Under the pieces are notes generated by a model. The model saw only the letters and a program-made list of their open reading frames with translations. It made no database searches and was not told where the DNA came from. Of a stretch of 64,000 bases of DNA, positions 9,501-37,122 are shown in pieces. The translations under genes and the position numbers were made by a program. Numbering within the stretch: the first letter of the stretch is position 1; each line of letters opens with the position of its first letter. The DNA comes from Sorghum bicolor (lineage: Eukaryota; Streptophyta; Magnoliopsida; Poales; Poaceae): positions 25,269,317-25,333,316 of the forward strand of contig NC_012873.2 of NCBI RefSeq assembly GCF_000003195.3. Reading direction: 5' to 3'.

Positions 9501-10483
9501 AGGCACGGTGGCCACACGCGCAGCGACGGCGCTCTCGCCTGAGAAGAAGGCGAGGGCGAGCAGGGTCTCACCATGCGTTACCAGGCGCTTGGAGGCGTGT
9601 CCCGCAACGGCGAAGCGATAGCGGAGCTCGGGGAAGGAGGAATCGAAGAATGGCGCGCGCGTAGAGGAAGAACGGCCAGAGCGGAGCTCGGTGCTCCAAT
9701 GGCGACGATGGTGCGGTGTGCGCACAGAGCGGATGCGAGAGAGCGAGGAGGCGCGCGCACGGAGTGGAGGAGGGAGTGGCGGGTGCACTGGCGCGGTCCA
9801 CGGGCGGAGGGGGGGTCGTGGCGTCGGCGGGCGCACATGCCGGCCACGACGAGCCGCTGGCCTGACACGGTCGGGCGCGCGTGACGCGGCCGTGTCCAAG
9901 CGCGGGAGGAGGGAGGGGACACGGGTGCAGGGAGGCCGGGCCGGCTTCGCTAGCTGGGCCGGTTGGTTGGCGCCAGCCCGTCAGTGAACAACCCCCTCTT
10001 CCATTTTTCTTTAAATTCTTTTTCCCAAAAGCTTAAATGCAACTTTTGAAGCCCTTGTAAAGTTTTTCAGGAGTTGAGGTAAAAAGAAAAAATGTTCCCC
10101 ACAAAATACTCTACGACTTTGTTTTAAGGTGCAAGTCCAAATTCTAAACAGAATTTGAATCACAAATTAAAACTAGTGTTAGGTCTGTAAATAAATCTAT
10201 TTTGGAAAATCTGTATAAAATCTATTTCTCAAATCCTAGAGCTCGAAAAATGTCACAAAATTATTTTTAATTCTTCTAAAGCATAATTCAATTTATTTTG
10301 GTCACCACAAGCATTTTTGAAGTAAGCATACTAATTTATTATACTTAAATTCATTTAAATCAAGCGCATAAAATCACACTTAAAATGCTACTTATGCTCA
10401 TGTGATGCTTTGCTTATGCTTGATGAGGGTGCTTATGAGTAGTGTATGAGACTAAGTGCATGCTTAACACCTAGGGTGTTACA
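6558..10483 (-). repeat. Y1 3' LTR (3.9 kb)
   Basis: Starts TGTACCAGAACCGCCC on the plus strand (TGTAACAG in the other copies) and ends CACCTAGGGTGTTACA. In element orientation it therefore begins TGTAACACCCTAGGTG and ends CTGGTACA. It aligns along its whole length with 39749-43676 and, with more divergence, with the two Y2 LTRs. The LTR is AT-rich except for a GC-rich block at about 9130-9985. Plus-strand ORFs inside it (for example 7324-7803) are not kept in frame in the other copies, so no gene is called. Confidence 0.9.
9130..9985. other. GC-rich island within the Y1 3' LTR
   Basis: Around 850 bases of strongly GC- and CpG-rich sequence inside an otherwise AT-rich LTR. Equivalent blocks occur in the other three Y LTRs (about 16230-17060, 26700-27570 and 42320-43190). 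Long ORFs on both strands are a by-product of composition: aligned copies change frame between shared segments, for example between the VRPAA and HASKRLVTHGE blocks. It could be a promoter or leader CpG island, or an old captured host gene fragment; the sequence alone does not decide. Confidence 0.6.
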
Positions 10484-13663: not shown

Positions 13664-16600
13664 TGTAACAGAACCACCCAAATTATAAGAGATTAAGCCT
13701 GATAGTGACCATTTGCACAGTCGAACTACCGAGCTTAAACCCATATAATCCCTGTAGTCCGTGAAATCTCAAAGGATTTCAAACCACAATTCTTACATAC
13801 AGCCAAGATTGTAATAAGTTCAGCATTCACCATTCACAATTACATCTAGTTCACCACATTCATAAAATACATCGGAGTACTTAAAATTATTACAAACCAA
13901 GTTCTCAAGTAGCGGAAGATTCATAATTCGAAAGTAACACACACATGTTTAGTTTGATACAGTGTCATAGTCGGTCATTCCCACAAAAGCAAAGGAGAAG
14001 GTAGAGTGACCATCGCCCTTGGTCTAGTCATCGCCCATTGCTGGGTACAAGCAGAGGATGCAATAACCATAGTACATTTGACCATCTGCAAAACAACATG
14101 GGAATAGAACCTTGAGTACGAGAATGTACTCAGCTAGACTTACCCATCATAAACCAAAATAAAGACTCTTCAAGGATCATGTAGGCTGTATGGTGCGGTA
14201 GCTGAGACTTTTTGCATAAAAGCATTATTCCACTAAAATATAGCCTAGATACCTTTCTTCTTTTAATTAGCTCAAGTTTGATAATATCATTACCTATTAT
14301 CTAGGTTTGCACCTGTACTATTACAAACAAGTGTAGTAATATGATGGTACCCCATCATAGCATTCATAAATCATTAATCATCATAACCCAAGTGTTCCAT
14401 AGTCCTTACTACGAGGACGAAGCTCATGTCATGTGCTCACTATCCAGGAGCGATGGCGATTTGAATCGATTTCTAACCAGCTGGCGAGTTATTTCCCACA
14501 CAAACCACACTCACTGATCAAGTGAGCTACAGATCACCATGTCACACTATCCAGGACCAATTCGCGGGTTTGGCAGGCACCGCCAGTACCCGAGGACCGT
14601 TCCGGCGACCGAGGAATCCAAGGTATACCAAGGTTGCACGCCGCGCCCTCGTCGTTCTCCTCAACCATCACCAATACAGCGCATGGCGGCTCGACTCCCG
14701 GCCCGGTTAGTGCTCAGGCTTCGCGGTCGGAACGACTTATCCTTCCAGCTAAGTGTGGGGCATGCGTTGAACATGACAAGAGGGCCGTCAACGATCGGTC
14801 CTTAATCGACACAGGCAGGGGCACTATGGTCAACCCACCATAAGACCCTGCCTAGTCTCAAATTCCTTTCCTCACTTGGTTATTCTTCCCCATAGCAATT
14901 ACAGCTAATCAAACCGGTGTCCACCTATATCTCGCAGGTGACTGGAAATCACCCGACTTCTACCAGACTAAGCAAACTAAGCATGGACTCCGTGCCTATC
15001 TACACAGGACAAGGTAGATAAACAAGTAGTGATATCAAGGAGTACATATGCATCAACGGTATTAAGCAATTCCTATCACTTAAATGCATTCATAGTAGAA
15101 CAAGCATAATATATCATTTATGTTAGTGAGAATAGGGAGACGTAGAATGCTCCGGGGATTGCCTTTCTCAAACGTGCTCGGCTTGTGATCCGGGCACTCT
15201 TGCAGCTCTTCTCCTGGCTCTGGCCCTCCCAGAAGTTCCTGCTCTTGGGTCTCCTCCGGCTCCTCGGGTCCCACCTCGTTCTCCTGCGAGCCTGTATGAT
15301 GCATGTGTGCTCATGAGTGGAGTGCGGGATGCCCGGGGTGCAATGCTTATGCAAGTAGGTACCAGATGACCATGACATGGTGCATAGATGATATAGGTGG
15401 TCACTTTTACAAGGTAGTCAACATCATCCAAGAACAAGTATTCGAACTTAGCATCTATTGTATTCTCGTCTACAAGTTGTCTTCAAGGTTAACCAGCAAG
15501 CTAACATGATGCTTCAAAGATACACCAAACATCTTTTATTCTATCTAATTCATACACAACAATTCTTATTTTATTTACTCACTTTTGGACCTACAAAAGT
15601 AGCATATATCTCTGTTTAGTAATAAATTCTACAAAAATTACAGTAGACTACTAGTCAATCATAAAGCCTACCATAAATTTCTCATAATATTTGGACATTT
15701 ATTTCGGGCTACAAAAATCACAAGATTAATCCATATAATCAAGTATAAATACCCTACTGTGGTATAAGTGTCAAACAGCAGATTTCATATTTTTATAAAT
15801 TACTTGTTAACATAAGAAACATCCACAAAATTTTCAAGATTAATTGCATGATCCAATTATTTATTACAAATCATAAACCACTGCTATGCAAGCGTTTAAA
15901 TAACCATAAATTAATTCATACCGCAAATAATGTGTAACAAAATTTTCCTAGAGACTAATCATCCATGTAGAGCCAACAAAATAAGTTTCATATTTTTCTA
16001 AGCTATATTTTAATTACTATGCATTTTCCAAATTTCAGCAAAAACATGGATTAAATATATTTGTACAGAAAAGTTGTTCAAACATGATATGCAACCATAC
16101 CAAACTATAGATGTGGAATTATAGAGTTCATCAAACTTTATTTCACAAATTCTGGAGCTGTAGAACTTAAGTTATGAAATATACAAGATTTAAACAAATC
16201 CTGAAAACCTTTATTTATGAAAAACGGACGGAAAACACTAGATCCACACCCGCAGAGGCGCTGACAGGCGGGACCCAGGGGTCTTGGCCCCACGGGTCAG
16301 CCACGCCGTACTCCAGCCGACTTCGGCCGGCCGGCTCTCGCCGACGGCGAGGTCTCCGGCCACGGGGTGAGCACCAACGTGCTCCCCGCAGCGAGGCACA
16401 CCCGAGGGTGCCCTTGGATCGGCCGGAAGATGACCGGAGCACCCCTGCGAGCATCCATAGCGGCACAGCGACGCTGCTCGCCGTGGCCAGGCCGCTCCGG
16501 TGCGGTAGAACGCGCGCGGGGACTCGTCCGAGCTTACTCACCGTGCTACGAACCTAACACGCTCGAAAGCAAGCGAAATGAGGCAGAAAGTAAGTGGCGA

Positions 16601-17546
16601 CGCGACGGAGCACTCCGATGAGGTCGGGGAAACTCCGGCGAGCGATTCAGGGCTTGTGGCGGTCTCTCACCTCGGTAGAGCGTGTGCAGAGGCTTACCGC
16701 GGCGAAGACGAGTGCAATGGTGGTTTTAGCGTCGAGGATGGGTCACTGGTGTGGCCGGCGGTGAGCGGCGGAGCTCTCTGGCGATGGCGCTGCGGCGGAG
16801 CTGCTGCAGCTCTCGCGAACGGAGGAAGGAGAAGGGAATGGGGAGGGGACAGAATGGGGTGGCCTGGTGGCGCGGGGCGGCGTCCCGACCGGGAAATGGC
16901 CGGTCGGCCGCGGCGCGTCCACGACGCCGGCGTACGGCCGCCACGTGGCCGGCGCTGGGTGGAGCGAGGCGGCGTCCGCGCATGGGAGAGAGGGGAGAGG
17001 AAAATGGGCCGCGCTGTCTGGCTGGGCCGAAAGGGAGGCGAGTCGGCCCAGTAGCGCCTGCCCCCTTTTCTTTTTTTTAAATTTCTTTTATCCAAAAAGC
17101 TTAAATAAGATATTTGAAGCCTTTGCAAAACTTTTCAGGGGTTGGAGTAAAAATAAGAATTGCTCCCCACAAAATTCCCTACAACTTTGTTTTAATAAGC
17201 AAAGCCAAATTCTAAATAGAATTCGAATCACAAATTAAAACTAGTTCTAGGTTTTTAATAAATTCATTTTATGGATTTTTGTATAAATTCCATTTCTCAA
17301 TTCCTACAGCTCCAAATATTTCACAAAATTACTCTTAAATCTTCTGACACATATTTCAACCTAATTTGGGCATTTCAAGAAAATTAGAAGTAAGCATAAT
17401 ATTTTTACCATATTTAATTCACATAAAATAAAGCACATAAAATCACACTTGAATGAATGACATGCTCATGTGATGCTATGCTTTATGAGAATGCTTATGG
17501 ATGAGTGTATGTGACTAAGTGCATGCTTAACACCTAGGGTGTTACA
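13664..17546 (-). repeat. Y2 3' LTR (3.9 kb)
   Basis: Plus-strand start TGTAACAGAACCACCC, end CACCTAGGGTGTTACA. It aligns along its length with 24202-28044. It has a GC-rich island at about 16230-17060. ORFs of up to 158 codons in the island are not frame-conserved. The 3' LTR supplies the polyadenylation region of the element transcript. Confidence 0.92.
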
Positions 17547-17558
17547 GCCCTTCCCCCC

Positions 17559-18914
17559 TTAGAGAAATCTCATCTCGAGATTTTGAGCTACTAACCATTT
17601 CTTATGAAATTTTGGATAAACTATTTTTAGGTAATCTTCGGTTTCCCAGGTGGCATCCCTATCATCATGATGACTCCACACCACCTTATATGTTTTGACA
17701 ACTCTGTTCCGGGTTACCCGCTCCTTGGTATCTACGATACCCACTGGCTGCTCCTTATATTCTAAGTCTTCCTTTATTTTGATTCCTCGGGGTTCAATCC
17801 TTTGCTCAGGCACTTTCAGACATTTTCGTAGCTGTGACACATGGAAAACTGGAAAGACCGAGCACAACTCCTCTGGTAACTGAATCTTGTAGGCTACAGG
17901 GCCTTTTCTTTCTAGTATCTGATACGGTCCCACATATCTGGGTGCAAGCTTGCTTCAAACTCGGAAACGTTGAACTTTCTTCATTGGTGTAACCTTGAGG
18001 TAAACATAGTCACCTACATTGAACTCGAGTGGCCTTCTTCTCTTATCGGCATAACTCTTTTGTCGCGATTGTGCTGCCTTCATGTGTTGTTGTATGATTT
18101 GCACCTTTTTCTCAGCCTCGTTCACGAAGTCGATGCCATAGTATCTCGTTTCACCAGGTTCGACCCACTTTAACGGAGTTCTACACTTACGATCATACAA
18201 CGCTTCGAACGGAGCCATCTTGATACTCTCTTGATAGCTATTATTGTACGAGAATTCCGACAAAGGTAACCATGATTCCCATGATCCCTTGGATGATAAC
18301 ACACATGCCCTCAACATATCTTTGAGCACTTGATTGAGTATTTCCGTTTGACGTGAAGTTTGGGTGTGATATACGGTGCTCCTTATCAGAACAGTCCCCA
18401 AACTCTTATGCATTCGCTCCCAGAAATGAGCGGTGAACTGCGGTCCTCTATCTGATATGATGGTCTTAGGAATACCATGTAGCTTGACGATCTCTGCCAT
18501 GTATATATCAGCATAATCGGGAGGTCTGTATGTGTTCTTAACTGGAATGAAATGAGCCGACTTGGTCAATCGGTCTATGATTACCCAAATCGAGTCATTC
18601 CCCTTTTGTGTTGCCGGTAAACCTGTGATAAAGTCCATACTTACCTCTTCCCATTTCCACTCTGGAACTGACAACGGTTGCAACAGACCTGCAGGTTTCA
18701 TATGTATAGCCTTGACTCTGCAACACGTGTCACAACGGGCCACATACGCTGCTATTTCTTTCTTCATTTTAGTCCACCAAAAGTGAGACCTTAGGTCTTG
18801 ATACATCTTGCTACTGCCAGGATGAATAGAAAGCTTGGAGAGATGTGCTTCATCCATGATGCGGTTCTTTAACTCTCGATCTTTCGGGACTACTAACCGG
18901 TGCTGAAACCACAA
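17559..18914 (-). pseudogene. pol: Y2 integrase with chromodomain
   Basis: 18914-17955 is an almost intact integrase: AHLSKLSIHPG and CDTCC of the zinc-binding domain, then MDFITGLPATQKG, SDRGPQFTAHFWERMH and a core glutamate in TSRQTEILNQVL. This is followed by GDYVYLKVTPMKKVQRFRV. A TGA at 17955-17957 interrupts before SKLAPRY; 17933-17559 continues with MGPYQILERKG, HVSQLRKCLK and the chromodomain (EQPVGIVDTKE, VVKTYKVVWSHHDD, TWETEDYLK). The same codon is TAA in Y1, so both copies are broken at one position. Confidence 0.9.
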
Positions 18915-18932
18915 TACCCCTTTTTCATCAAC

Positions 18933-20327
18933 TCAGAACTGAGTTTTTGGATCGCCTTTGATCTTCTCTTTGATGTGGAAAATACCCTTGTCTGTTTTCT
19001 GACCTTCAATGACTTGACTTTCAAGTGAACAACTGAGTTGTATGTTCCCTAAGACTTCAGGATGCATGAGATTGAAACCATCTTCAAACAATGGTTGAAC
19101 CACTTGATAGTGCGGTTTGCGACTCAAAGTGTCTGCTACCACATTAGCCTTGCCCGGATGATAATGGACCTCTACATCGTAATCCTTGATCAGCTCTAAC
19201 CATCTTCGTTGCCTCATATTCAGCTCGGACTGAGTGAAGATGTACTTCAAACTTTTATGATCTGTGTAGATATGACACTTGTTTCCCAGCAAATAGTGCC
19301 TCCAGATTTTCAAAGCGTGCACCACTGCTGCTAACTCGAGGTCGTGAGTTGGGTAGTTGACTTCGTGCTTTCTCAACTATCGTGAAGCATAAGCTATACC
19401 TCTGCCGTCTTGCATCAGCACACATCCTAAACCACTTTTCGATGCGTACCAAAACACATCAAAAGGCTTCTCGATATTGGGCTGCGCTAAAACGGGAGCG
19501 GTGGTTAGCAACTTTCACAAGGTGCGGAAGGCTAACTCACACCCTTCCGTCCAGACAAACTTATGATCCTTTTGCAGCAAACTGGTCATTGGCTTAGCAA
19601 TCTTGAAGAAGTCGGGTATGAAACGACGATAATACACGGCCAGACCAAGAAAACTCCGAACTTTTGAGACAGAAGTTGGTGCCTTCCAGTCCATGACTTC
19701 CTGTACTTTTGACGGATCCACAACAATCCCTTCTTCAGACAGAATGTGCCCTAGGAAAGGAACTTTCTTCAACCAGAACTCGCACTTGCTGAATTTTGCG
19801 TACAACTGATGCTCTCGTAGTCGTGTTAGCACGACTCTGAGATGCTCGGCGTGATCTTGCTCATTCTCTGAATAAACCAGAATGTCATCAATGAACACCA
19901 CAACAAACTTGTCTAACTCTGGCATAAAGACGGAGTTCATCAGATACATGAAGTATGCAGGAGCATTTGTCAACCCAAAGGACATGACAAGATACTCATA
20001 CAACCCATATCTGGTGGAAAAAGCAGTCTTCGGGATATCTTGCGGATGGATCTTGATTTGGTGATACTCGGACCTCAAATCTATGTTGGAAAACACTTTT
20101 TCCTTGGACAACGGATCAAACAAAATATCAATCCTTCGCAGCGGATACTTATTTTTGATTGTCACCGCATTGAGGGGACGATAGTCCACGCACATGCGCA
20201 ACGATTGATCATTCTTTTTCGCAAACAACGCCGGACAACCCCATTCCGACGAACTTGGCCGGATGAACCCTTTATCTAACAACTCCTTTAGTTGATTCTT
20301 CAACTCAGCGAGTTCATTTGGCGGCAT
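18933..20327 (-). pseudogene. pol: Y2 reverse transcriptase and RNase H
   Basis: 20327-19515 holds RT from [20 protein letters not shown] through [32 protein letters not shown], the catalytic [12 protein letters not shown] and GHILSEEGI to [15 protein letters not shown] at 19515-19517 replaces CGA seen in Y1. RNase H continues with [15 protein letters not shown] (first Asp of the Y1 DAS motif is Tyr here), then TAG 19377-19379 where Y1 has CAG. 19376-18933 has [24 protein letters not shown] and [10 protein letters not shown]. The block stops at TGA 18933-18935. Confidence 0.9.
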
Positions 20328-21019
20328 CTGTACGGCCTTCTAGATATCGATGCTGTACCTGGTATCAACTCTATTGCAAACTCTACTCCCCTGTCTAGGG
20401 GAAGGCCTGGCAATTGCTCAGGAAAAACATCAAGGAACTCATAGATTACTGGGATCTGTGGCACAGGAACCACGTGCGTAGCACAAGAGATGCTAGCAAA
20501 GTCAAAGCAACGGGGCAGAGGTACTTGAAAAGATCCACTGCCCTGGGGTTCTCTGAGAGATAACACCCTCTTCCCAATATCTATGACAGCATCCCACTCT
20601 TTCATCAAGTTCATGCCTATGATAACATCCAAAACTAACCCAGGCATGACTACCAGATTTACTCAAAACACCCGGTTACTTATATCCAGGGTTGCCCCTC
20701 GGACCACTCTATTTGTCAACACATCTGCCCCTGCTGAGCTGATGAGATAGCCATAACCCAGATCTATAACTGCTTGGTCATGATTTTGTGCAAATGCTTG
20801 GCTCATGAATGAATGTGATGATTCGGAATCAATCAAAACAACTGCAAGATGTTGGTTGACAAGAAACATACCAGCTGTTACCGGTTCTCCTTCCGGGATC
20901 TCCTCTATCGAAGTATGGTGCACACGGGCTGGGTAGGTTGCCTGCTGCTTCTTGGGGTAGGGACATTCCTTAGCAAAGTGCCCCATCTTGTGGCAGTTGT
21001 AGCATGGCCCCTTGGTCAT
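20300..21019 (-). pseudogene. pol: Y2 gag zinc knuckle and protease
   Basis: 21019-20663 begins MTKGPCYNCHKMGHFAKEC, a CCHC knuckle (C-x2-C-x4-H-x4-C). It continues to the protease with VVLIDSESSHSFMS, where the usual DSG triad reads DSE; Y1 keeps DSGSS. After a stop at 20663-20665, 20647-20300 gives [19 protein letters not shown] and the linker [18 protein letters not shown] one-base frameshift near 20325-20332 separates it from the RT frame. With the changed active site this protease would probably be dead even if translated. Confidence 0.87.
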
Positions 21020-21118
21020 GTTGTTGGCGGCAGGTGCCGCAGCTTGAAGTGCCTTTCGCTTGGCGGGAGCTATTGCTACCTTGTACGGCTTCTGCTGCGT
21101 TGGATGCCCGATGTTCCT

Positions 21119-22016
21119 TCACTGCGGCGGTCGGAACCTAGCACCTGGGGCAAGAGGATGATACTGCTGTCGTCCCGCCACCAGTGGCCTAGACTGAGAT
21201 GACCCGGCTTCAAAAGCCCTCTTACGAGACTTGGATGCACTATAGTTGTTGTTATTGTTTTCCTGGGTCAGGTAGTCACGGATGTAAGCATTGAAGGTAG
21301 CCCGGGTCCCTGTACGCATGGTCTTCAACATCTTCAGGCTCAGACCTCTCTGAAAACTAGCGATCTTCTTGGCCTCCATGTTCACATACTCGGGGGCGTA
21401 ACGAGCAAGATTGTTAAAAGCGTGCAGATACTCCTTTACAGTCTTTGTTCCCTACGACAGCCTCATGAACTCCCCAACCTTCATTTCCACCACACCCGGA
21501 GGAATGTAATTTCCTCGGAAGGCGGTTCCAGGTGATAGGGGTTCCCTCTGGGTAGGTGGTACGGTGATGGGACCACCAAATCCCAGTAGGTCCCTGCAAC
21601 TGATGCGCTGCATACTCAGCCTTGAGTTCTTCAGTCATCCGATGAAAGACGGAACTTTTGCTCCATAGTGTTGATCCACTCCTCCGCCTCGAGCGGTTCT
21701 AAGGCCTCCTTGAAGACTGGTGGTTTGGTATCCATGAAGTCCTTGAAAGAGCTGTACTGATTGGCTTCACGGCCGCCCTGGTTATCCCCACGGCGGGTAT
21801 TGTCAGCGATATTGCGCAGGGCTTCATGTTGCGCTGCATCTGCTCCATGTTGCGTTGGCTTCTCAGAAACTGCATGAAAAACACGTCCGCAGTGTACGGT
21901 GGAGGTGGTGCTGGTGATGGTGCTCTTTCCTCATTCCGTTGAGCCCCACCTCCAAAAGTACCTGCTCTAAGACCGGGGTTGCTGTTACCCACGCCACGTG
22001 TTTGCACCATCTGCAT
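21119..22016 (-). pseudogene. gag: Y2 gag capsid region
   Basis: Pieces 22016-21699, 21638-21414 and 21385-21119 together resemble the uninterrupted Y1 gag at 28514-29356. The start is MQMVQTRGVG, followed by ERAPSPAPPPP, TADVFFMQFLRSQRN, ELKAEYAAHQLQGP and W(T)-type motifs, then KKIASFQRGLSLKMLKTM and YLTQENNNNNYSASKS. Small indels shift the frame near 21820, 21640 and 21400. The piece keeps the glutamine codon (SSQSR) that is TAG in Y1. The 320 bases between orf0 and this start (22017-22335) hold no ORF. Confidence 0.85.
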
Positions 22017-22335
22017 TCGTCAATGATAAGCACTCGTTAGGAGTTGCCATCAACGGTAGACATATGTAGAATTATGCCGTACTAAATTTACTGAGGAAAA
22101 TAAATTCACACAATAAACAGAGGCACAAGAATTCATCATCGACACACAACATCAGTAACGAAATACTTAACATTCGAGCAACAAGGTTCGCATACATCCA
22201 AAATTGCCAGCATACATACACTGGACTTTCAGCGTCATCACATAAAGTTTTACACAGCCCAGATCCGCAGATTACAAGGCATGCGATGCAACAAAAACAT
22301 CAAAAGAAGAAGGACTAGCTCTAGAGCCCTAGCAT

Positions 22336-23378
22336 CTACTCGCTATGGTCACTGTCCATGCCGGAGCCCTCTTCGTCCTCATCTCCGCTAGCGGCTGTCT
22401 CTATCTCTAGATCCTCATCCATCTCGTCCTCAGAGTCTAACTCAGCTACTCCAGGCAGGTGGTGAGGGTGGAGCTGGTTATGCAGCTGGTGGATCTCCTC
22501 ATGCAAGTTCTCATTGGACTCCTCAGCATTAGCTAGCAGCTGCTCAAGCTCTAGCTGTCGGGCCCTCAGGGTGTCCTCCTCGTGCCAGCCTTCATTCCTC
22601 TGACAAGCACATGAACTAGCATGCGCTCGTAGTTCCTGTGAGCACTAGTCACCCTGTCCCTCTGCTCTCTCACTGCAAGCAGGTCCTGACTCAGCTCACT
22701 GTTCTTCTGGACCGCCTGATCCCTCTCTCAGGTCATGTGGGCCAACTCTGCCTGCAACCTCTCAACCTCAGTGTCAAACTCACGCTGTAGCTAGCGCTTC
22801 TCATCGTGAACTGTGAGAAGAGACCCAGACAAGCATCCCAAGCAACGCTCCAGACCCCCATAGGTCTTCATCAAGGTGAACATAGCGCTCATAGCTGTGC
22901 TCTCACTGTGCTGGTCCTCGTCTGCACTCCTTTCTAGAGCATTCACCTCGGACTGATCCCACACCGAAGTGTAGGGGTCACCCCGGGGAAACACCCCAGC
23001 GAAGGCGTGGGCCAGCTCCTGTGGAAACCTCTACATGATGTCCCTCAGAACTGCGAAGGCTGCTCTACTGGCACCGTGGAAAGGCATGGTACCTCGGGAC
23101 TCGTACACCCAGCCGCCCCAAGCAGGGTCACCTCCACTGGTAGGGACCACTGCCTTGATCCCCACTAGGGTCCCATCACCAAGCTGCTCCTTGTTCTAGT
23201 AGTAGCGAGGTTCCCTTCCTTCGGGATACCCCATCGAGCTAAACACCCTCCAGAACAAGGTGGGCATCCCAAACTCCTCCAGGAACATGCTCTTATGACG
23301 CGAGCTCTTGGCTGCCAACTGATGGCAAGGGGCCCGCCCACTAGTGGACTTGCGAGCGGTGAGCCTAGTGCGTGCCAT
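22336..23378 (-). pseudogene. Y2 orf0: protein with histone H3-like N-terminal tail, coiled coil and acidic tail
   Basis: Starts at ATG 23378-23376 with MARTRLTARKST; 18 of the first 28 residues equal the canonical H3 tail, with K9 in ARKS kept, K4 and K14 as R, K18 and K27 as H. A central part has EEFGMPTLFWRVFSSMGYPE, GGWVYESRGTMPFHGASR and ELAHAFAGVFPRGDPYTSVW. A coiled coil follows (EFDTEVERLQAELA), and an acidic end with DEMDEDLEIE and EDEEGSGMDSDHSE before TAG 22336-22338. Breaks: TAG 23196-23198 after 60 codons, TAG near 23030, TAG 22791-22793 (CAG in Y1), a possible further stop in the coiled coil and a one-base deletion near 22590. Allowing for that deletion the span is 348 codons. 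Its position between primer site and gag recalls orf0 of rice RIRE3/RIRE8. I do not recognise the central domain. Confidence 0.7.
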
Positions 23379-24187
23379 CTGCTGAAAAGAGAATACCTTG
23401 GGTAAGATTGAGAATTATCTTTTATTATCTTAATTGGAATTGGGATAGAATTTCAATTAAGGGGAGGAAGTAAGCAATGTCATAGAATGAACATGACACA
23501 TGCATGAACTTACGATATCATAAACTTAGAAACAGGGTCAACACTAATCGGTATATGCGGTGGCACACAACGTTCTCTCATAACGTACTAGCGTTCTAGG
23601 CGGGAACGTGGTTACTGTACCTGCAGAAAACTCATTTCAGCCCAACCACAGTATGAACATGCAGAACAAGAATATAAATCTACACACCCCACATGCATAG
23701 ACACCTCTTCCATGCATATGGTGTGTTACTACCCACATCATTGCCCTAGTGACGGCATCGCCTCTCGGGACGGAATCTCCCAACATGCGGTACTGTTCCC
23801 AGACACATCAAACATGTGTGCATGACACAGCACGTAACAACACTTCCCTAGATCGGCAGTGTATCCGATCATGCTCTCACAGCTCCCACTTACCGAGGCA
23901 TAGAGGAAGAATTGATCCATACATTACCACTCAAATGAATGGTACTCATACTATTGCACGCCGTATGAGCGACGAAATAGAAATATGATGCATTAACCCC
24001 CAAGTCAGTACTTAACTAGCCACCTTAGAGTCCTTAACTGGGCATAAAGGATATGACCATGGCACACAAGATAGTTTTCCAAAAACTTAGTTTAACACCT
24101 TGATTATCATTAATTAATAATAATCTTTTATTAAACCGGTTTAAGGTGAGCTAGAACGTACTTATGAACAGTAACTCGCTAAACCTT
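23379..24187 (-). other. Y2 5' leader between primer site and orf0
   Basis: About 0.8 kb of low-coding sequence, alignable with the Y1 leader at 38925-39734 (shared GCGGTGGCACA, CATGACACAGCAC and TAACTAGCCACCTTAGAGTCC blocks). Packaging and dimerisation signals would be expected here. I see no conserved ORF. Confidence 0.6.
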
Positions 24188-24199
24188 GCTCCGATACCA
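24188..24199 (-). promoter_or_regulatory. Y2 primer binding site (tRNA-iMet)
   Basis: The plus strand reads GCTCCGATACCA, then GC, then the LTR. On the element strand this is TGGTATCGGAGC, two bases from the 5' LTR. It matches the plant initiator-Met primer site TGGTATCAGAGC with one difference. This is the usual primer of chromoviruses. Confidence 0.88.
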
Positions 24200-24201
24200 G
24201 C

Positions 24202-27200
24202 TGTAACAGAACCACCCAAATTATAAGAGATTAAGCCTGATAGTGACCATTTGCATAGTCAAACTACCGAGCTTAAACCCATATAATCCCGGTAGTCCAT
24301 GAAATCTCGAAGGATTTCAAACCACAATTCGTACATACAGCCAAGATCGTAATAAGTTCAGCGGTCACCATTCACAATTACATCCAGCTCACCACATTCA
24401 TAAAATACATCGGAGTACTTAAAATTATTACAAACCAAGTTCTCATGTTGCGGAAGCTTCATAATTCGAAAGTAAAACACACATGTTTAGTTTGATACAG
24501 TGCCATAGTCGATCATTCCCACAAAGCAAAGGAGAAGGTAGAGTGACCATCGCCCATGGTCTAGTCATCGCCCATTGCTGGGTACAAGCAGAGGATGCAA
24601 TAACCATAGTACATTTGACCATCTGCAAAACAACATGGGAATAGAACCTTGAGTACGAGAATGTACTCAGCTAGACTTACCCATCATAAACCAAAATAAA
24701 GACTCTTCAAGGATCATGTAGGTTGTATGGTGGGGTATCTGAGACTTTTTGCATAAAAGCATTATTCTACTAAAATTTAGCCTAGAGACATTTCTTCTTT
24801 TAATTAGCTCAAGTTTGATAATATCATTACCTATTATCTAGGTTTGCACCTATACTATTACAAACAAGTGTAGTAATATGATGGTACCCCATCATAGCAT
24901 TCATAAATCATTAATCATCATAACCCAAGTGTTCCATAGTCCTTACTACGAGGACGAAGCTCATGTCAAATGCTCACTATCCAGGAGCGATGGCGATTCA
25001 AATCGATTTCTAACCAGCTGGCGAGTTATTCACCACACAAACCATACTCACTGATCAAGTGAGCTACAGATCACCATGATACACTATCCAGGGCCAATTC
25101 GCGGGTTCGGCAAGCACTGCCAGTACCCGAGGACCGTTGTGGCGACCGAGGTATCCAAGGTATACCAAGGTTGTGCGCCGCGCCCTCGTCGTTCTCCTCA
25201 ACCATCACCAATACAACGCATGGCGGCTCGACTCCCGACCCGGATAGTGCTCAGGCTTCGCGGTCGGAACGACTTATCCTTCCAGCTAAGTGTGGGGCAT
25301 GCGTTCAACATGACAAGAGGGCCGTCAACGATCGGTCCTTAATCGACACAGGCAGGGGCACTATGGTCAACCCACCATAAGACCCTGCCCGGTCTCAAAT
25401 TCCTTTCCTCACTTGGTTATTCTTCCCCATAGCAATTACAGCTAATCAAACGGGTGTCCACCTATATCTCGCAGGTGACAGGAAATCACCCGACTTCTAC
25501 TGGACTAAGCAAACTAAGCATGGACTCCGTGCCTATCTACAGAGGACAAGGTAGATAAACAAGTGGTGATATCAACGAGTACATATGCATCAACGGTATC
25601 AAGCAATTCCTCACTTAAATGCAATGATAGTAGAACAAGCATAATATATCATTTATGTTAGCGAGAATAGGGAGACTTAGAATGTTCTGGGGCTTGCCTT
25701 TCTCAAACGTGCTCGGCTTGTGATCCGGGCCTCTTGCAGCTCTTCTCCTGGCTCTGGCCCTCCCAGAAGTACCTGCTCCTGGGTCTCCTCCAGCTCCTCG
25801 GGTCCCACCTCGTTCTCCTGTGAGTCTGTATGATGCATGTGTGCTCATGAGTGGAGTGCAGGATGCCCGGGGTGCAATGCTTATGCAAGTAGGTACCAGA
25901 TGACCATGACATGGTGCATAGATGATATAGGTGGTCACTTTTACAAGGTAGTCAACATCATCCAAGAACAAGTATTCGAACTTAGCATCTATTGCATTCT
26001 CTTCTACAAGTTGTCTTCAAGGTTAACCAGCAAGCTAACATGATGCTTCAAAGATACTCCAAACAATCTTTTATTCTATCTAATTCATACACAACAATTC
26101 TTATTTTATTTACTCACTTTTGGACCTACACAGTAGACTACTAGTCAATCATAAAGCTTACCATAAATTTCTCATAATATTTGGACATTTATTTTGGGCT
26201 ACAAAAATCACAAGATTAATCCATATAATCAAGTTTAAATACCCTACTGTGGTATAAGTGTCAAACAGCAGATTTCATATTTTTATAAATTACTTGTTAA
26301 CATAAGAAACATCCACAAAAATTTCCAGATTAATTGCATGATCCTATTATTTATTAAAAATCATAAACCACTGCCATGCAAGCATTTAAATCACCATAAA
26401 TTAATTCATACCGCACATAATGTGTAACAAAATTTTCCCAGAGACTAATCATCCATGCAGAGCCAACAAAACAAGTTTCATATTTTTCTGAGCTATATTT
26501 TAATTACTATGCATTTTCCGAATTTCAGCTAAAACATGAATTAAATATATTTGTACAGAAAAGTTATTCAAACATGACATGCAACCATACTAAACTATAG
26601 ATCTGGAATTATAGAGTTCATAATCTTTATTTCACAAATTTTGGAGCTGTAGAACTCAAGTTATGAAATATACAAGATTTAAACAAATCTTGAAAACCTT
26701 TATTTATGAAAAACCGACACAAAACACTAGATCCACCCAGATCCACACCCGCAGAGGCGCTGACAGGCAGGACCCAGGGGTCGTGGCCTCACGGGTCAGC
26801 CACGCCATACTCCGGCCGACTGGCTCTCGCCGACGGCGAGGTCTCCGGCCACGGGGTGAGCACCAACGTGCTCCCCGCAGCGAGGTGCACCCGAGGGTGC
26901 CCTTGGATCGGCCGGAAGATGACCGGAGCACCCCCGCGAGCATGCATGGCGGCACGGCGGCGCTGCTCGCCGTGGCCAGGCCGCTCCGGTGCGGTAGAAT
27001 GCGTGCGGGGACTCGTCTGAGCTTACTCACCGTGCTACGAACCTAACGCGCTCGAAAGCAAGCGAAATGAGGCAGAAACGAGTAAGTGGCGATGCGGCGG
27101 AGCACTCCGACGAGGTCGGGGAAACTCCGGTGAGCGATTCAGGGCTCGCGGCGGTCTCTCACCTCGGTAGAGCATGCGTAGAGGCTTACCGTGGCGAAGA

Positions 27201-28044
27201 CGAGTGCAACGGTGGGTTTGGCGCCGAGGATGGGTCACTGGTGTGGCCGACGGTGAGCGGCGGAGCTCTCCGGCGATGGCGCTACGGCGAAAATGCTGCG
27301 GCTGCTGCTCTCGCGAACGGAGGAAGGAGAAGGGAACAGGGAGGGGACAGAATGGGGTGGCCTGGGGGCGCGGGGCGGCGTCCCGACCGGGATAAGGCCA
27401 CTCGGCCGCGACGCGTCCACGACGCCGATGTACGGCCGCCACGTGGCCGGCGCCGGGTGGAGCGAGGCGGCGTCCGCGCGCAGGAGAGAGGGGAGAGGAA
27501 AACGGGCCGCGCTGTCTGGCTGGGCCGAAAGGGAGGTGGGTCGGCCTAGCAGCGCCTGCCCCCTTTTCTCTTTTTTGAATTTCTTTTCTCCAAAAAGCTT
27601 AAATAAGATATTTGAAGCCTTTGCAAAACTTTTCAGTGGTTGGAGTAAATAGAAGAATTGCTCCCCATAAAATTCCCTACAACTTTGTTTTAATAAGCAA
27701 AGCCAAATGCTAAATAGAATTTGAATCACAAATTAAAACTAGTTCTAGGTTTTTAATAAATTCATTTTAGGGATTTTTGTATAAATTCCATTTCTCAATT
27801 TCTATAGCTCCAAAAATTTCACAAAATTACTCTTAAATCTTCTGACACATATTTCAACCTAATTTGGGTATTTCAAGAAAATTAGAAGTAAGCATAATAT
27901 TTTTACCATATTTAATTCACACAAAATAAAGCACATAAAATCACACTTGAATGAATGACATGCTCATGTGATGCTATGCTTGATGAGAATGCTTATGGAT
28001 GAGTGTATGAGACTAAGTGCATGCTTAACACCTAGGGTGTTACA
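24202..28044 (-). repeat. Y2 5' LTR
   Basis: TGTAACAGAACCACCC to CACCTAGGGTGTTACA; pair of 13664-17546. It contains the GC-rich island at about 26700-27570. It should hold the promoter of the Y2 transcript, which runs leftwards; I could not place the TATA box with confidence. Confidence 0.92.
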
Positions 28045-30297: not shown

Positions 30298-31677
30298 TGT
30301 TGATATTTGGTAACGCAATAAGGAAATGATCCGCAAGCGCACGGATATCGATGAGCATTTCACCCGGGAGGTTATCCAGAGTTATCGTATTTATATTTTT
30401 ACCACTGGGAGAAAGGGTGCATCTGACTAACCAAATCTATTGCTACTACCCCTTTAGGCTACAAAGAATGTCTCTCGATGTGAGCGATGTATAGAGAAGA
30501 CTGCAACCGTAGTCTCGTTCTAACTTTGGTAAGGATGATCTACTGTTCTATTGGGGAGGCTCACGGAATCTAGACAACACAAAGGATGTTCGACCCGCAC
30601 CTATAAACCTACCCGTCCTGCTAATGAGATAGGGGATACAAAGGTAAATCGGAAATGTCACGTTCCTCGCTACTACCATGGTCCAGCTAGTCAGGGGATA
30701 TCTATGAGTACCCTAGCCTAAACACCACGTTTATGCTAGCAAGTGATTACTCTAATACTCAACCAGAAGAGGATTAAAGTAAACTCATAAACCAAAGAAC
30801 AATAAAACAAGAACTTACTAGAATTTAGAAGTCGAATTACTGAAGAATCTTAGAATCAAGCCTCGGGTTAGGAGACTTGATCCCGCAGGTACAACTCGGA
30901 GTAGACACCGACAAGCCGGCCTTCCTATGTTCCACACCTCCACTCTATCTCTCTCAATCTAGTAGAAACTAGAAGATCTATTTCTACTTACATTGGTTGC
31001 TAAGCCTAAAAAGAAATATTATTTAGAGAAGAGGTTTTCCTTCGAGGGCACCCCTCAATCTCTATGATAATTTCTTGTCTTCTCCAGGGGCCAGGGGGTC
31101 TCCTTATATAGTGCTCCTCCTCTATGCATTTTTGGTTCAGCAGGCGATGTGGTACTAAACTTTCCACCATATCTCATTAAAATACACATAGGCCTTCATG
31201 GACCAAAATCTCATTTGGGCCCAATTAATCCCGCAGCTCTTTTATGTGGTGTGCTTCTTTTATTAATATCTCTTGATTCCGAACACCAAATATAGCAAAT
31301 AATATATGCATTTCGATCAGCTCGACGAGATCTTTGTAATGGTGTACTCCATTCTGTGATTGGTGGAAACACCTGGGCGGGCGCCCAAGGGGAGAGGGCG
31401 GGCGCCCTGCCCCCGGGCCCGTTCGGCCTCCCGTTCGTTCTCGTGGTTTCTGGAGTCTTCTAGATGATAGAAAATTGCGCGGCACGTTAATATCTCTATG
31501 TAAACCCAACATGTGGGCCTTTCTTTCTCATTTCTTGATAACCCCCTGCAGAAATAGACAAACACCAAAACTCGTGGAATCCTGTCAGATAAAACCCTAA
31601 GTCTAGCTGTTGATTTCATTTGGATCCTTTTCTTTGTTTATTTTATAATTAAATTTGATACTTAAGGACCGTCAACA
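30298..31677 (-). repeat. B1 3' LTR
   Basis: Plus strand TGTTGATATTTGG to ACCGTCAACA; pair of 37123-38503. A TATA box (TATATAAG on the element strand) lies at 31103-31110. It contains GC-rich GGGCGCCC and GCGGGCGCCC repeats near 31375-31420. Confidence 0.92.
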
Positions 31678-33840
31678 AACTCCCCCAAGCTTACCTCTTG
31701 CTCGTCCCTGAGCAAGGATGAACTCAAGAGTTTCTGCAGTGGTTTCATGCCTTAAAAGTACACACGCATTCAAGCAAGATCTCATCTCTTAGTTAGAATA
31801 AACTGTTAAGACTTAAAACTTACTCATTTTACCTTTCACCATGGGGCTTGTAACCTTCACTTGTGTCTTGAGCAGTTAAAAGATAGAACAGTCTAGTCAA
31901 GTGCTATGTCTCGTATTCTTGATCAGCTATAGCTCTGGAGTTTTTGCAGATTTTTAAATAAAACTCAGAGATTCCTTGTATGACTCTCTCAGATCTCTCT
32001 TTTGTGGTATTTCTGGATCCTTTCCAAGGCAGTAATAGTATATGCCTTCTCTCAAAGTATGTAGTATTTATGGTATGAGGCATAGTGATATTGCCTTCTC
32101 TCTCACCCCACTCTAATAAGGTTCTGATATCTGGAGCTCATAGGTGGGAGACCGCTAATACATACTTACAAGACATTTATTGCATAGTCAAACCATGGAT
32201 CCAGAAGAACAAGTCAATAAGTCAAATCAAGATGTGCATGTGTGGCGAGTGAATGGTATATGGTGATGATGGTGATAACAATGGTGAAAGTCTAATTCTA
32301 CTTTTGCTCTTTTAAGGGGATAGATACCTTTCTTGCACTTTGAAGCTTTTTTGGGAGAATGAGATGCTCTATATTTTCTTTTTCTTTCCTCTTAGGTGGG
32401 TATCTTGTACCCCTAATTCTACTGTCGGACACTTGTCCATTTTTACCTCTCGTCTCACTTTTTCTTTTCTTCGAGGTTCCGGGCACTTGCCCCTGTTTAT
32501 TTCCTTGTATTATTTTTTTTCTCTTTTTTTTATTTTTCTTTTTTTTAGAGCACTCATCTCCTGAAAGAATGTAGCAAGTGGTAGTAACCAAAATAACTGG
32601 AGCATTTATTTCACAGGGAATAATAGGGATAGGAAAATGTTTTTGGCTATTCTCTCCCGGATTAGGAGTAGAATAATTTTGGGTGAATCTGGAGATGGAA
32701 ATGAGTGGATATATGTGGATGGTACTTCCGGAGTAGAAGTAGCATGTATGAGTGGACATGCAAGTGAATCTTGATTTTAACCACATGACAAGCTCCTAAG
32801 GGTCTACACAGCTTGACCACACTCAATGCTCATAAGCAGTAAAAAGTAAATATGTGGCTCAAAGTCTAGCAAGCATGTATATATGGCTGTGGTAGGAATT
32901 TAAACTCTCATCATATAGGAACTCATCATGTGTTATTTTCAAGATTTTCCAAAGATAAAATTCTCCAGAATTCTAGCATCTCTAGGAATAGATAAACAGC
33001 AGCTCAACCTTCCCATATCATATCCGTTAACGACTTAGACTTTAGATCAAGTACTCTTCCCACAAGTTCAGATTTAGAGCAAATCATAATTCATAACAGT
33101 CATGCCTAAACTTGAGAGAGATTTCAATTTTAAGAACTAGTCATGGCAGAGCAACTATTCATCATTTCCATGAGAGAGCTTATCATGGGGGTTCATAGCA
33201 AATTTTATTTATTTATTTGTTTAGCAAACTAAGCAAAGATATATATAAAAGCACAAAATCTTTATTTGGGTTTTCATAATTATGCATCTTTTATTATTTG
33301 AGTAAAGTATAAACGCGAGTAGAAACACTTAGCTAGATAAATGGGGGTGCTCTCCCCCAAGCTGGATTTTGACGTAATTTCTTCTGATGTAGCTAGCAGG
33401 TGGTAGAGGTGTATTTGAAAGTCAGCAGCATTCTGACAGCGATTAGAATGTCCTCCGTCTGCTAGTCTTCTTGATTCTTAAATGCTGTAGAGCTCAAATA
33501 GACAACAAAGCTTTGTGGAACTGGTTAAGTGTTAGCATAAATATCTAGCCTTTATCATATTGAGCCTCCTCAATAAATATTACTTATTTAGCAGGATTAT
33601 GCATTTATTATTTTTATATTTTTTTATTGTAAGATGAAAACTTATTTATTTTATTTTTATGCCACCACAGAGAATGTACTTATGGGTTTTATGCCATGAG
33701 CATACTCACATGGGGCTTACTATTGTTTTAACATTTTTATTTTTATTTTTTTTTCAAGATAGCATGAACCTGATTAACTAAGCAAACTATTGAATGGAAA
33801 AGGATAACTACCAAGTTTACCTCTTGGCAAGGCGTTCGGT
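31678..33840 (-). other. B1 non-coding 3' internal region with polypurine tract
   Basis: About 2.1 kb with no conserved ORF between the protease region and the 3' LTR. The element strand ends AGCTTGGGGGAGTT (31678-31691), the polypurine tract. B2 holds the matching region at about 46690-48833, with an identical tract. A lysine-rich 162-codon ORF at 32298-32786 is not kept in B2. Long A+T runs occur near 32510-32550 and 33600-33760. Confidence 0.7.
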
Positions 33841-33875
33841 GTTTTTAAGTCCTCCGAACGGGACTCCTTGTGTTT

Positions 33876-34762
33876 TCAGTCGTCCTGGGATTCGCTAGGT
33901 GGCGTAGTCGGTGATTCCGGCGGCGCCTCTTCTTCGTGTATAACTATCTTCTCTCTCCACACCTGACTCGGTGCTACAGTCTCCTCAGGACAGTTCTGTT
34001 CAAGTTGTATGTCTTCAGACCTTATCACTTCTCCTTCGTAGTCTACCCCATCCGTCCTTGATGATTTGCCTCCTCTGGTTGCGGTTGCGTTGTCTTCTTC
34101 TTGTCCTGACCTACTTAGAGTCTTCAACTATATAGTTAAGGTCAGTAAAATAGCGGCATACCTTCTTAGAGGAGAAGTGTACGTGGACTTCTCCGATTCC
34201 AATATAGATGATGGCTTTGATAGTGTTGTGGAACGGTCTTCCAAGGATGGTGGGTGGATCATACTCGTCTTCTCCCATGTCAATGACCTGAAAATCATCT
34301 GGAGCTGAATGTATCTTGGTTGTAGGAGCATGGTTCCATGCAGAGCTGATAAGTGACTGTGGCCATTATGTTATCGTCAGATCCGGTGTCGTAGAGTGTC
34401 TTCTGAAAAGAGTATCCATTGATTGCGCACTCGATGCTTGAAACACCAGGGTCGTCCTTCTTGATCAGGAAAGGCGATTTGAGTCGACGATCTTGACCTC
34501 CTCCAACAAGGATCCAATGTTTTAAGTCTTCTAGACAAGACTTCTCACCGTCTTCATCCTTTAGGTGCATCATTTGATTAGGTGTGGACCTTGATGTCTG
34601 CACCTCTTGATACGGAGTCATCCTTGTTCTTTGTTTGCTCAGCAGTTCAAAGTGCGGTGTTGGCAATATCCTGCTTAGTGTGTTTGTGCTTGTAGATCTA
34701 GGTCCTTCACTTGGTGGAATTTGGGAGTTGTAAAACTCCTCCATGTTTTGTTTGAAGTGTAC
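33876..34762 (-). pseudogene. B1 retropepsin-like domain
   Basis: From 34744 leftwards the frame starts MEEFYNSQIPPSEGPRS, has NQMMHLKDEDGEKSCLEDLK, then INGYSFQKTLYDTGSDDNIM, whose DTGS is the aspartic protease signature. After a frame change near 34310-34330 the expected downstream strands appear: VIDMGEDEYDPPTILGRPF and a YIGIGEVHVHFSSKKV-type segment. A polar acidic tail runs to 33876. Proteins of this kind are common in grass LTR elements. B2 lacks the protease core. An apparent splice acceptor precedes the start (34763-34764). Confidence 0.7.
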
Positions 34763-36094
34763 CTATTCATAGAGACAAGGCAGAGATCAAGTGCATGGGC
34801 CCTGTTGGTGGAAAACACCAACAGAACCAAAAGTGTATTTGTTCTTCTCTAACCTTAAGCATAGTGAGCAAGACAAAGTTGATGGATCATGAGTGTAGCA
34901 TTTAAAACATTTGTTAGATCAGATGGCTCAACCTAATGGAAAGATAATCTATCTATATTTATGTTTTGTTTATATCTTCCAAAGATTTAAATGTACAACA
35001 TTTTAGCTTATATGATTAGGAGTGTGGGATCACGAAGGTAGTACTAAGAACAAAGATTAAAGGACTAAACATGTTGAATTAATTGAGTTGGTTAATTTGG
35101 AGTTACAGATCAGACATGTTTGTCTCTTTATTTATGCGAATGCTAGAACCAAGGAGAAACTTATAAAAATGATAGTCAAGTACTTTAAGATGTTACCTTA
35201 ATTGAAGAGTGATGGTATAGTATCACCTTGTGGAAGCTTTCCTTTCTTAGCGGTTGTGCATCGTGTTTGTGGCACCCTCCATGAATCATCTCTTATGAGC
35301 TACGTCTTTCTTGTGCAAATTGTTAAACTTCATGTGTCTCCTTTATCTCCAATGAGTTTGTATCTCAGGACTTCCCAGGTTGATATTGAAAGTTTTCCTG
35401 CAGGGGTTAGTCCAACAAAATATCCCAAATCTACTATAGCATACTATCGGCTCAAAAATCAACCTAGACACCATGTCTAATTTGATTTAGAAGGGCATTT
35501 TAACCTAAGCACCATGCTTAATTTAAAATCCCTTGGAAGTAAGATCATCATTCCTAAACTAAGCACTATGCTTAATTAAGAGATAAATGAAACTACTCCA
35601 AACCTAGACATATACTAAAGCAAATAAAGGTGGCATGAGAGCAATTATAGAGATCCTACTCAAGTGGAGGTGAAGTAGTGTAATTAGTATTTAACAAATT
35701 GAGCATCTCTCAAAGGTAGGGACAACCAACATAGCAACATGGCGAAGGATGTTTTTATGTAAAGTACTCCCCCAAGCTTGAATTTTACAAAATTCAAGTT
35801 TGGATGAATTTAATTCAATGTTGCATGATGTTTGGTTGGACATACCTTGTGCTTGTCATTCATCCGATCTTCTTGCTCCTATCCTAGAAAGGTTAGTGGC
35901 AAGAATACCAGAAGGAATATTTCTACGATTATCTTTATATGCTCAATATACAGGGCAATGTTGCAAATAATTAGAAGTTCATGTTACGATCTGATCAGTG
36001 CTTGTTTTCGGACATTAAGCTTATCCTTGGGAAACCATCAAGTTATGTTGGTGAAGTGGTTTCCCCTCCAACGCTGACCTATATCAAGATCAAC

Positions 36095-37009
36095 TCAACA
36101 AGATCTGCAATATTTATTATAGACATATGCATCGACAACCGCCCTTTTAAAGTTTTTATAAATAGAAAGGAAGAGGGGGTTGGAGATCTCAAATGTGGTA
36201 AGGATGGAGAGACTAATTGATTGGGGAGATGTTTTATATGAGCGAGGTAAGATATTTATGAAATAACTTCCATGCTCACTGTTGTTTCTCTTATTCTCAA
36301 ACTCCAAGGATGATTCTTCATGAATGCTTAAAATTTCTCTAGGATTGTCTCTCAAGTTTGTTTTATCTATCCATTCAATGGTGATAGCACAAGGATTTTT
36401 AATGCCCTCTAGCCATTGATGTTGCTCTTCTCGATCCTCCTTCTTATGCATGGGATGTCTAGAGAGATTCATAGGATTATCGGGAGGTTCAAGAGAAAGA
36501 GCATAGTAGAAACTATTAAGCTTAAGGATGGGATGGATAGCCGAATCATGGGATTGTAATGTTTGGAAATTGGCTATTGAAACTTCCTTTCCTCGTTTGG
36601 GAGATGATTCCTTCTCTATCTCTAAGATTTTTCTATGAAGACTAGTACAAGAAGGATCTCCATGAATGAAGACATACCTTCCTTTACTAATAGATAAAGA
36701 AAGAAGGACTCTACCAAAGGTTATAAGACCAATGTGAAAATATCTAGGAAAAACATGGTCTTGTAGGGCTAGGTCTAAACCAGAATTTATAGAAAGATTA
36801 ACAGATTCCGTAGGTGTAGCTAAAAGTGCATTATCTTCTTGATTAAAAGATAGGACCTCGGCTATAGAAAAGGGTTGGTTTTGACCTATTGCAATCAACT
36901 CCGGACACAGATCATAATTAGGGGCAGGACGTGTTGACTCCCATGGTCTATGGCTGGTCTCCGAAGGTGCAAAGAATTCAATAATAGGTATGGAATTTGA
37001 GTTATCCAT
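36095..37009 (-). CDS. B1 ORF of about 304 codons, function unknown
   Basis: Open from ATG 37009 (MDNSNSIPIIEFFAPSETS) to a stop at 36095. It lies about 90 bases after the primer site, where gag would be expected. The reading frame extends further upstream into the LTR, but this ATG is the first after the primer site in frame. The protein is polar, with SIAEVLSFNQEDNALL, VFPRYFHIGLITFGRVLLSL, FIHGDPSCTSLHRKI and HKKEDREEQHQWLEG. I see no zinc knuckle and no capsid signature, so calling it Gag would be a guess. It has no stop over 300 codons, in keeping with the element's youth. Confidence 0.55.
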   Translation of the reverse strand: MDNSNSIPIIEFFAPSETSHRPWESTRPAPNYDLCPELIAIGQNQPFSIAEVLSFNQEDNALLATPTESVNLSINSGLDLALQDHVFPRYFHIGLITFGRVLLSLSISKGRYVFIHGDPSCTSLHRKILEIEKESSPKRGKEVSIANFQTLQSHDSAIHPILKLNSFYYALSLEPPDNPMNLSRHPMHKKEDREEQHQWLEGIKNPCAITIEWIDKTNLRDNPREILSIHEESSLEFENKRNNSEHGSYFINILPRSYKTSPQSISLSILTTFEISNPLFLSIYKNFKRAVVDAYVYNKYCRSC

Positions 37010-37096
37010 AAAGATAAAAAGATAAAAGAATAAAAGTATAAAAGTATAATACAAGATAATAGCAAGATTCAAAGTTATCTCAGCAAACCGTCTTTC

Positions 37097-37114
37097 TCCC
37101 CGGCAACGGCGCCA
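37097..37114 (-). promoter_or_regulatory. B1 primer binding site (tRNA-Asp)
   Basis: The plus strand reads TCCCCGGCAACGGCGCCA, the 3' end of plant tRNA-Asp. The element strand therefore begins TGGCGCCGTTGCCGGGGA, eight bases after the LTR edge at 37123. This primer choice is typical of Athila-lineage elements. Confidence 0.88.
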
Positions 37115-37122
37115 GAAATGCT

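Follow-up and report, generated by a model that had tools for sequence, protein, structure and literature searches.

Grass retrotransposons of the Tekay clade, among them RIRE3, RIRE8, Retrosat2, FRetro3, SorSat2/Sb7 and maize Tekay, have extended long terminal repeats (LTRs) and an open reading frame, termed orf0 or 5′aORF, between the 5′ LTR and gag. According to the sections of PMC3485330 drawn on here, no function could be assigned to orf0, and modelling pointed to hydrolase-like and other enzyme functions; the sections of PMC11728184 used here describe a DRBM-like structural domain in maize and sorghum Tekay 5′ ORF proteins. Both orf0 and its DRBM-like part are thus already known from these two papers. 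The word 'histone' is absent from the main text of either, and a search of open-licence papers returned no description of a histone H3 tail in a retrotransposon protein. Here we analyse a 64,000-nucleotide stretch of the Sorghum bicolor genome (contig NC_012873.2; hereafter the window), in which self-comparison resolves two Tekay-type Ty3/gypsy elements on the minus strand, Y2 nested inside Y1. In these elements orf0 is flanked by the 5′ LTR on one side and the zinc-knuckle/protease region on the other, and in both its N-terminus begins MARTRLTARKST, a peptide homologous to the histone H3 tail. The window elements resemble the published ones in the place of orf0, in their long LTRs, in the LTR start (TGTAACACCC in the window, TGTCACACCC in Retrosat2/RIRE8 as given in part of PMC3485330) and in the DRBM-like domain shared with the maize and sorghum proteins; Sb7/SorSat2 and the other published orf0 are likened to ours by place, LTRs and domain description, not by protein sequence. 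Both window copies of orf0 are disrupted, as their features record:

22336 to 23378, minus strand: orf0 of Y2, a degenerate copy, interrupted by in-frame stops and shifted in frame near residue 252; 45 relatives in the first protein search.
23307 to 23378, minus strand: H3-tail-like start of Y2 orf0 (initiator Met and residues 1–23), from H3 alignment and phmmer.
23024 to 23270, minus strand: Y2 segment matching a predicted α-β-β-β-α fold like that of double-stranded RNA-binding domains (dsRBDs); the prediction was made on the relatives P0061 and P0049 rather than on Y2.
38586 to 38924, minus strand: N-terminal 113 codons of Y1 orf0, including the H3-like tail; three in-frame stops, then broken by a nested insert.

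The minus-strand ATG at 23378 opens MARTRLTARKSTSGRAPCHQLAAKSSRHKS in Y2, and that at 38924 opens MARTRLTARKSTRGRAPHHQLAPRSSRHKS in Y1. Aligned to H3 without gaps, 18 of 28 positions agree in Y2 and 17 of 28 in Y1, reproducing the values given in the initial annotation, whereas the runner-up among all 2,517 ATG-started 28-residue peptides on both strands of the window reaches 8. The residue assignments made there were also right: K9 is kept, K4 and K14 are arginine, K18 and K27 are histidine, and K23 is lysine in Y2 and arginine in Y1. Across 200,000 shuffled Y2 tails the maximum was 12 identities. Histone H3 was retrieved from PDB sequences by a phmmer search with the Y2 N-terminus (best E = 4.9e-5), and a profile of ten tails matched H3 with E = 5.5e-13. 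Chance resemblance or misassembly, for which we found no supporting point, was rejected on the runner-up, shuffle, phmmer and profile values and on the independent genomic copies and relatives from other sequence sources described below; we regard its probability as negligible.

Protein searches gave 45 relatives, then 383, of which 120 were listed, then 86, amounting to 168 distinct proteins, a sample somewhat biased because the queries bore the tail. Scoring found 54 of the 168 to extend at least 25 residues upstream of a conserved (G)MPTLLW anchor; with the misanchored P0130 dropped, 53 were retained, and these together with Y1 and Y2 form a set of 55 tails. The H3-like tail is present in all 53, with Met at the H3 start in 52, as in Y1 and Y2. 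Over the 55 tails, Met is found in 54, A1 in 53, R2 in 48, T3 in 51, T6 in 50, A7 in 54, R8 in 50, K9 in 55, S10 in 50 and T11 in 47. Over 47 tails, position 4 is lysine in 24 and arginine in 22, and lysine is kept at position 14 in one, at 23 in two and at 18 and 27 in none. With most other modifiable lysines lost, K9 is the only lysine always left. P0059 and P0133 stand nearer to H3 than the window copies do (MARTKQTARKSTGGRAPR..QLA, 20 of 24 identical), and P0135 and P0152 have the weakest tails (8 of 14 identities each). No orf0 relative was confirmed in viral contigs or prokaryote genomes, each searched with one peptide pattern.

Many copies in the sorghum genome carry an orf0 with the H3-like tail. 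A search of the 709-Mb assembly with the Y2 N-terminus yielded 2,107 candidates; scoring was confined to the best 150, all of which were matches. From this search and the one with P0059 described below we fetched 60 loci, chosen as best matches rather than at random; six repeat the same place and 51 are distinct over codons 1–115. The tail is present in 60 of 60, and 20 have an uninterrupted 347-residue orf0, placing the tail in frame at the start of orf0 in related copies, as read from the orf0 frames. A tail-free search with a body segment gave 2,079 candidates, 150 of them scored; reading upstream in 20 of the 150, at about every seventh rank, revealed the tail in all 20 (9–12 of 14 identities; some places are shared with the tail-search lists), with K9 kept in 19. 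When the P0059 tail served as the genome query, the 150 scored matches reached 67–71% identity, several of them at known places of the sorghum family.

Host genes suggest where the tail came from. Eight H3 genes of the assembly are uninterrupted and match the H3 query identically; others bear introns, and three of these (L073/L094, L074 and L075) have a first coding exon that stops right after K23 (AAG, then gt); in L075 a splice acceptor, aatgcag, abuts the ATG. The match of orf0 to H3 fades at residues 21–23, with R26 frequently agreeing too, and TTTGCAGCAG abuts the orf0 ATG in most copies. Among 55 distinct copies, 52 have AG at −5,−4 and 47 have GTAAGT at −140 to −125, Y1 not being one of the latter. 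These signals delimit a candidate intron in Y2:

23382 to 23513, minus strand: candidate 5′-leader intron, with a GTAAGT donor at 23513 and an acceptor ...TTTTCAG ending at 23382, 3 nucleotides before the ATG.

The Y2 leader has two GTAAGT donors on the minus strand, at 23508–23513 (−135) and 23888–23893 (−515); Y1 has the distal one only.

Because the match fades at the host exon end and an acceptor-like signal stands at the ATG, the simplest reading is that an H3 ATG exon was captured together with its acceptor, and the most likely source of the tail is coding exon 1 of an H3.3-type H3 gene that has introns, taken up with the acceptor upstream. No donor H3 gene stands out by nucleotide identity (41–49 of 69; third positions 6–11 of 22), and P0145 shows faint H3 likeness up to residue 28, so the captured piece may have been longer. 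With histone H3.3, orf0 shares a homologous N-terminal tail, the match fading near the K23 exon boundary. Unlike H3.3, it has a different body and no histone fold: the fold predicted after the tail differs, and no histone family is among the Pfam matches listed. Three further host genes (L077, L078 and L079) are divergent, intron-bearing and H3-like with altered tails, and their first coding exon apparently ends near residue 20; L077 keeps K9, L078 has ARRS and L079 has ARNS.

The tail is more conserved than the remainder of the protein. Across 11 body clusters the mean top-residue frequency is 0.88 for tail residues 1–14 versus 0.58 for the body, whose best 14-residue window reaches 0.81; about nine of the 11 clusters are meaningful, because P0040 and P0043 shift frame downstream and form artificial singletons. 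Comparing 27 distinct tails with six host H3 genes over codons 1–13, we obtained synonymous differences (pS) of 0.40–0.76 and non-synonymous differences (pN) of 0.10–0.14, with pN/pS of 0.14–0.26; over codons 1–21 pN/pS is 0.22–0.38. The best account of the many synonymous and few amino-acid differences from host H3 is selection on the protein after capture. Some of the synonymous change took place in the host genes, so the ratio for the element alone could be as much as about twice as high. Neutral evolution of the tail, which would speak against mimicry, is not what these comparisons indicate, since across subfamilies the body is more variable than the tail, and the tail is constrained relative to host H3. 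The body itself has pN/pS of 0.17–0.20 in sorghum copies (codons 37–115) and 0.22 between Y1 and Y2.

Downstream of the tail, orf0 is predicted to form a DRB/Dicer-like dsRBD fold and then a long coiled coil, and its end is acidic. The predicted structures of relatives show the α-β-β-β-α order of a dsRBD, as in the plant DRB and Dicer dsRBDs of DRB4, DRB7.2, HYL1 and DCL4. Unlike those domains, the scanned orf0 proteins have no Pfam dsRBD match at E ≤ 1, the KKxAK motif through which dsRBDs contact dsRNA was not seen by eye in orf0 protein A6, and the domain shares its chain with an H3 tail and a coiled coil. The Pfam matches of orf0 proteins were all under cut-offs, mostly to coiled-coil families.

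As a whole, we consider it an even call that orf0 is a chimeric accessory protein, combining an H3-derived tail, a dsRBD-like fold and a coiled coil, that acts as a K9-centred decoy and blunts small-RNA-guided silencing. The likeliest role of the tail, judging from these sequences, would be that of a decoy for H3K9-centred, small-RNA-linked silencing. In such a scheme the first ~23 residues of orf0 would stem from coding exon 1 of a host H3 gene, and A1-R2-T3, T6-A7-R8-K9-S10-T11-G-G, P16, L20 and A21 would have been kept after capture. Oligomerization through the coiled coil would display many H3K9-type substrates or ligands, the displayed tails would meet host K9 writers and readers of the SUVH/CMT/ADCP1 class in the nucleus, and the dsRBD-like domain might engage DCL/DRB proteins, with the outcome that small-RNA-guided H3K9me silencing of the element would be blunted. 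The scheme builds on the computed H3 homology, conservation, many copies and splice-like leader signals and on the predicted body fold, and it supposes exon capture, nuclear location, K9 modification, the named partners, oligomerization and the anti-silencing effect. The fuller proposal, that a captured H3 ATG exon has since served as a K9-centred decoy fused to a Dicer-partner-like domain, suppressing both the chromatin and the small-RNA arms of silencing, is a tentative one that we hold at somewhat under an even chance. It remains to be explained how retrotransposons of high copy number survive H3K9 methylation and small-RNA silencing, and a captured, K9-keeping tail offers a concrete and testable molecule; if true, this reading would suggest a function for orf0 and provide a clear example of a transposable element mimicking a histone.

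Other histone mimics are known, influenza NS1 being one. The G9a/GLP automethylation motif, as described in part of PMC9768651, is likewise an H3-like motif in a non-histone protein, usable by H3 enzymes and readers. The putative mimic in orf0 is unlike both in that its match runs ~21–23 residues from the first residue, is homologous to H3 and belongs to a retrotransposon protein. The portion of PMC6318295 consulted gives R2, K4 and K9 as residues touched by ADCP1, which reads H3K9me2 in plants, and places A7, R8 and S10 outside its contacts; in the tails R2 is mostly kept, K9 always, and position 4 is lysine or arginine. As A7, R8 and S10 are conserved though untouched by ADCP1, another partner would be needed, for example a writer. 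The claim of an H3-tail mimic at the start of Tekay orf0 holds for homology, conservation and K9 as the sole invariant lysine, and its interpretation overall is partly supported.

Several observations qualify this reading. K9 is only slightly more conserved than the residues beside it (55 of 55 tails, against 54 for A7 and 50 each for R8 and S10), and methionine replaces it in two decayed sorghum copies, L008 and L104, whose frames are broken by an internal stop or by stops further on. Between Y1 and Y2, tail codons 1–28 carry five non-synonymous changes and one synonymous change (pN/pS 1.76), and across three divergence bins of sorghum copies the tail gives 0.10, 0.52 and 0.36. In the most divergent bin, codons 1–14 have a pS of 0.036 against 0.29 for the body, a suppression of about eightfold; because synonymous change is suppressed there, tail dN/dS within the family carries little information, and the test the initial annotation had proposed, with its six Y1–Y2 changes, is unusable. 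Together with nucleotides 0–19 of orf0, the most conserved 20-nucleotide stretch from −700 to +345 (0.996, in loci picked by their match over amino acids 1–60), this suppression indicates that the nucleotides are constrained too. The conserved unit might then be an RNA or DNA element at the start of orf0, either a splice acceptor with an exonic enhancer or a packaging signal, with the H3-like peptide as a by-product, and the splice-like signals adjoining the ATG would suit it. Such an element leaves unexplained both the H3 identity, with its many synonymous and few amino-acid differences from the host gene, and the tail residues common to subfamilies whose bodies average 41% identity (two frame-shifted singletons included); we judge it quite improbable.

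The tail could also be a nuclear-import or histone-chaperone signal, by which importins or H3 chaperones would bring orf0, perhaps with the pre-integration complex, to the nucleus, lysine-to-arginine swaps being tolerated. It is basic (pI 11.9 for residues 1–36 of L028), its lysine-to-arginine or -histidine swaps preserve charge, and a nuclear location is predicted for the Tekay 5′ ORF proteins analysed in the sections of PMC11728184 used here. This reading is nevertheless unlikely, as the non-basic A1, T3, T6, A7, S10, L20 and A21 are as conserved as the basic residues, beyond the needs of a basic nuclear localization signal, and K9 is replaced by arginine in 0 of 55 tails.

Instead of defending the element, a K9-modified tail might serve as a ligand of heterochromatin readers or of the element's own integrase chromodomain and so steer new copies to H3K9me chromatin. 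The element carries a Tekay-type chromodomain and, in the portions of PMC3350952 consulted, binding of H3K9me2/3 is described for the MAGGY chromodomain, and targeting of heterochromatin is proposed for chromodomains. Those portions also state that the methyl-lysine cage of group-II chromodomains is missing Y24 and, in most cases, Y48; with one or two of three cage residues missing, the idea that the element's own integrase chromodomain binds the tail is weakened, and we do not find it supported. A free tail would, moreover, be expected to compete with chromatin binding rather than favour it, and we hold targeting to be improbable.

The elements that carry these orf0 copies were delimited by self-comparison and edge reading of the window:

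13664 to 28044, minus strand: Y2 element, inside Y1; 3′ LTR 13664–17546, 5′ LTR 24202–28044, flanks GCTGA/CCTGA; LTR pieces 93.3 and 95.8% identical.
6558 to 43676, minus strand: Y1 element, split by Y2 and another LTR element; 3′ LTR 6558–10483, 5′ LTR 39749–43676, flanks GAGTC/AAGTC; LTRs 90.3% identical.
24188 to 24199, minus strand: Y2 primer-binding site, TGGTATCGGAGC, which we take to be tRNA-iMet-like.
20663 to 21019, minus strand: Y2 zinc knuckle and aspartic protease (Pfam PF00098, PF08284).
19515 to 20327, minus strand: Y2 reverse transcriptase (Pfam PF00078, E = 2.1e-33).
17955 to 18914, minus strand: Y2 integrase zinc-binding region and core (PF17921; PF00665, E = 3.6e-6, score slightly under cut-off).
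17559 to 17954, minus strand: C-terminal part of the Y2 integrase, bearing a group-II (Tekay-type) chromodomain (PF00385, E = 2.7e-4, under the Pfam cut-off).

Y2 has the LTRs, primer-binding site and protease–reverse transcriptase–integrase order of the Tekay clade, and its chromodomain motifs RVTRNR and ATWETE match by eye the Tekay description in the consulted part of PMC3350952. On their sequence, Y2 and Y1 are Tekay clade chromoviruses, the group-II chromodomain being assigned by these motifs and the sub-cut-off PF00385 match. The other LTR element, at ~30298–38513, sits in Y1 orf0 and has terminal repeats (30298–31685 and 37123–38513) that are 97.4% identical; partial sequence akin to it lies at ~45.4–50.1 kb in reverse orientation. 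A direct repeat at 50917–51553 and 63363–64000, 95.6% identical, may be the LTR of one more element that extends past the window edge.
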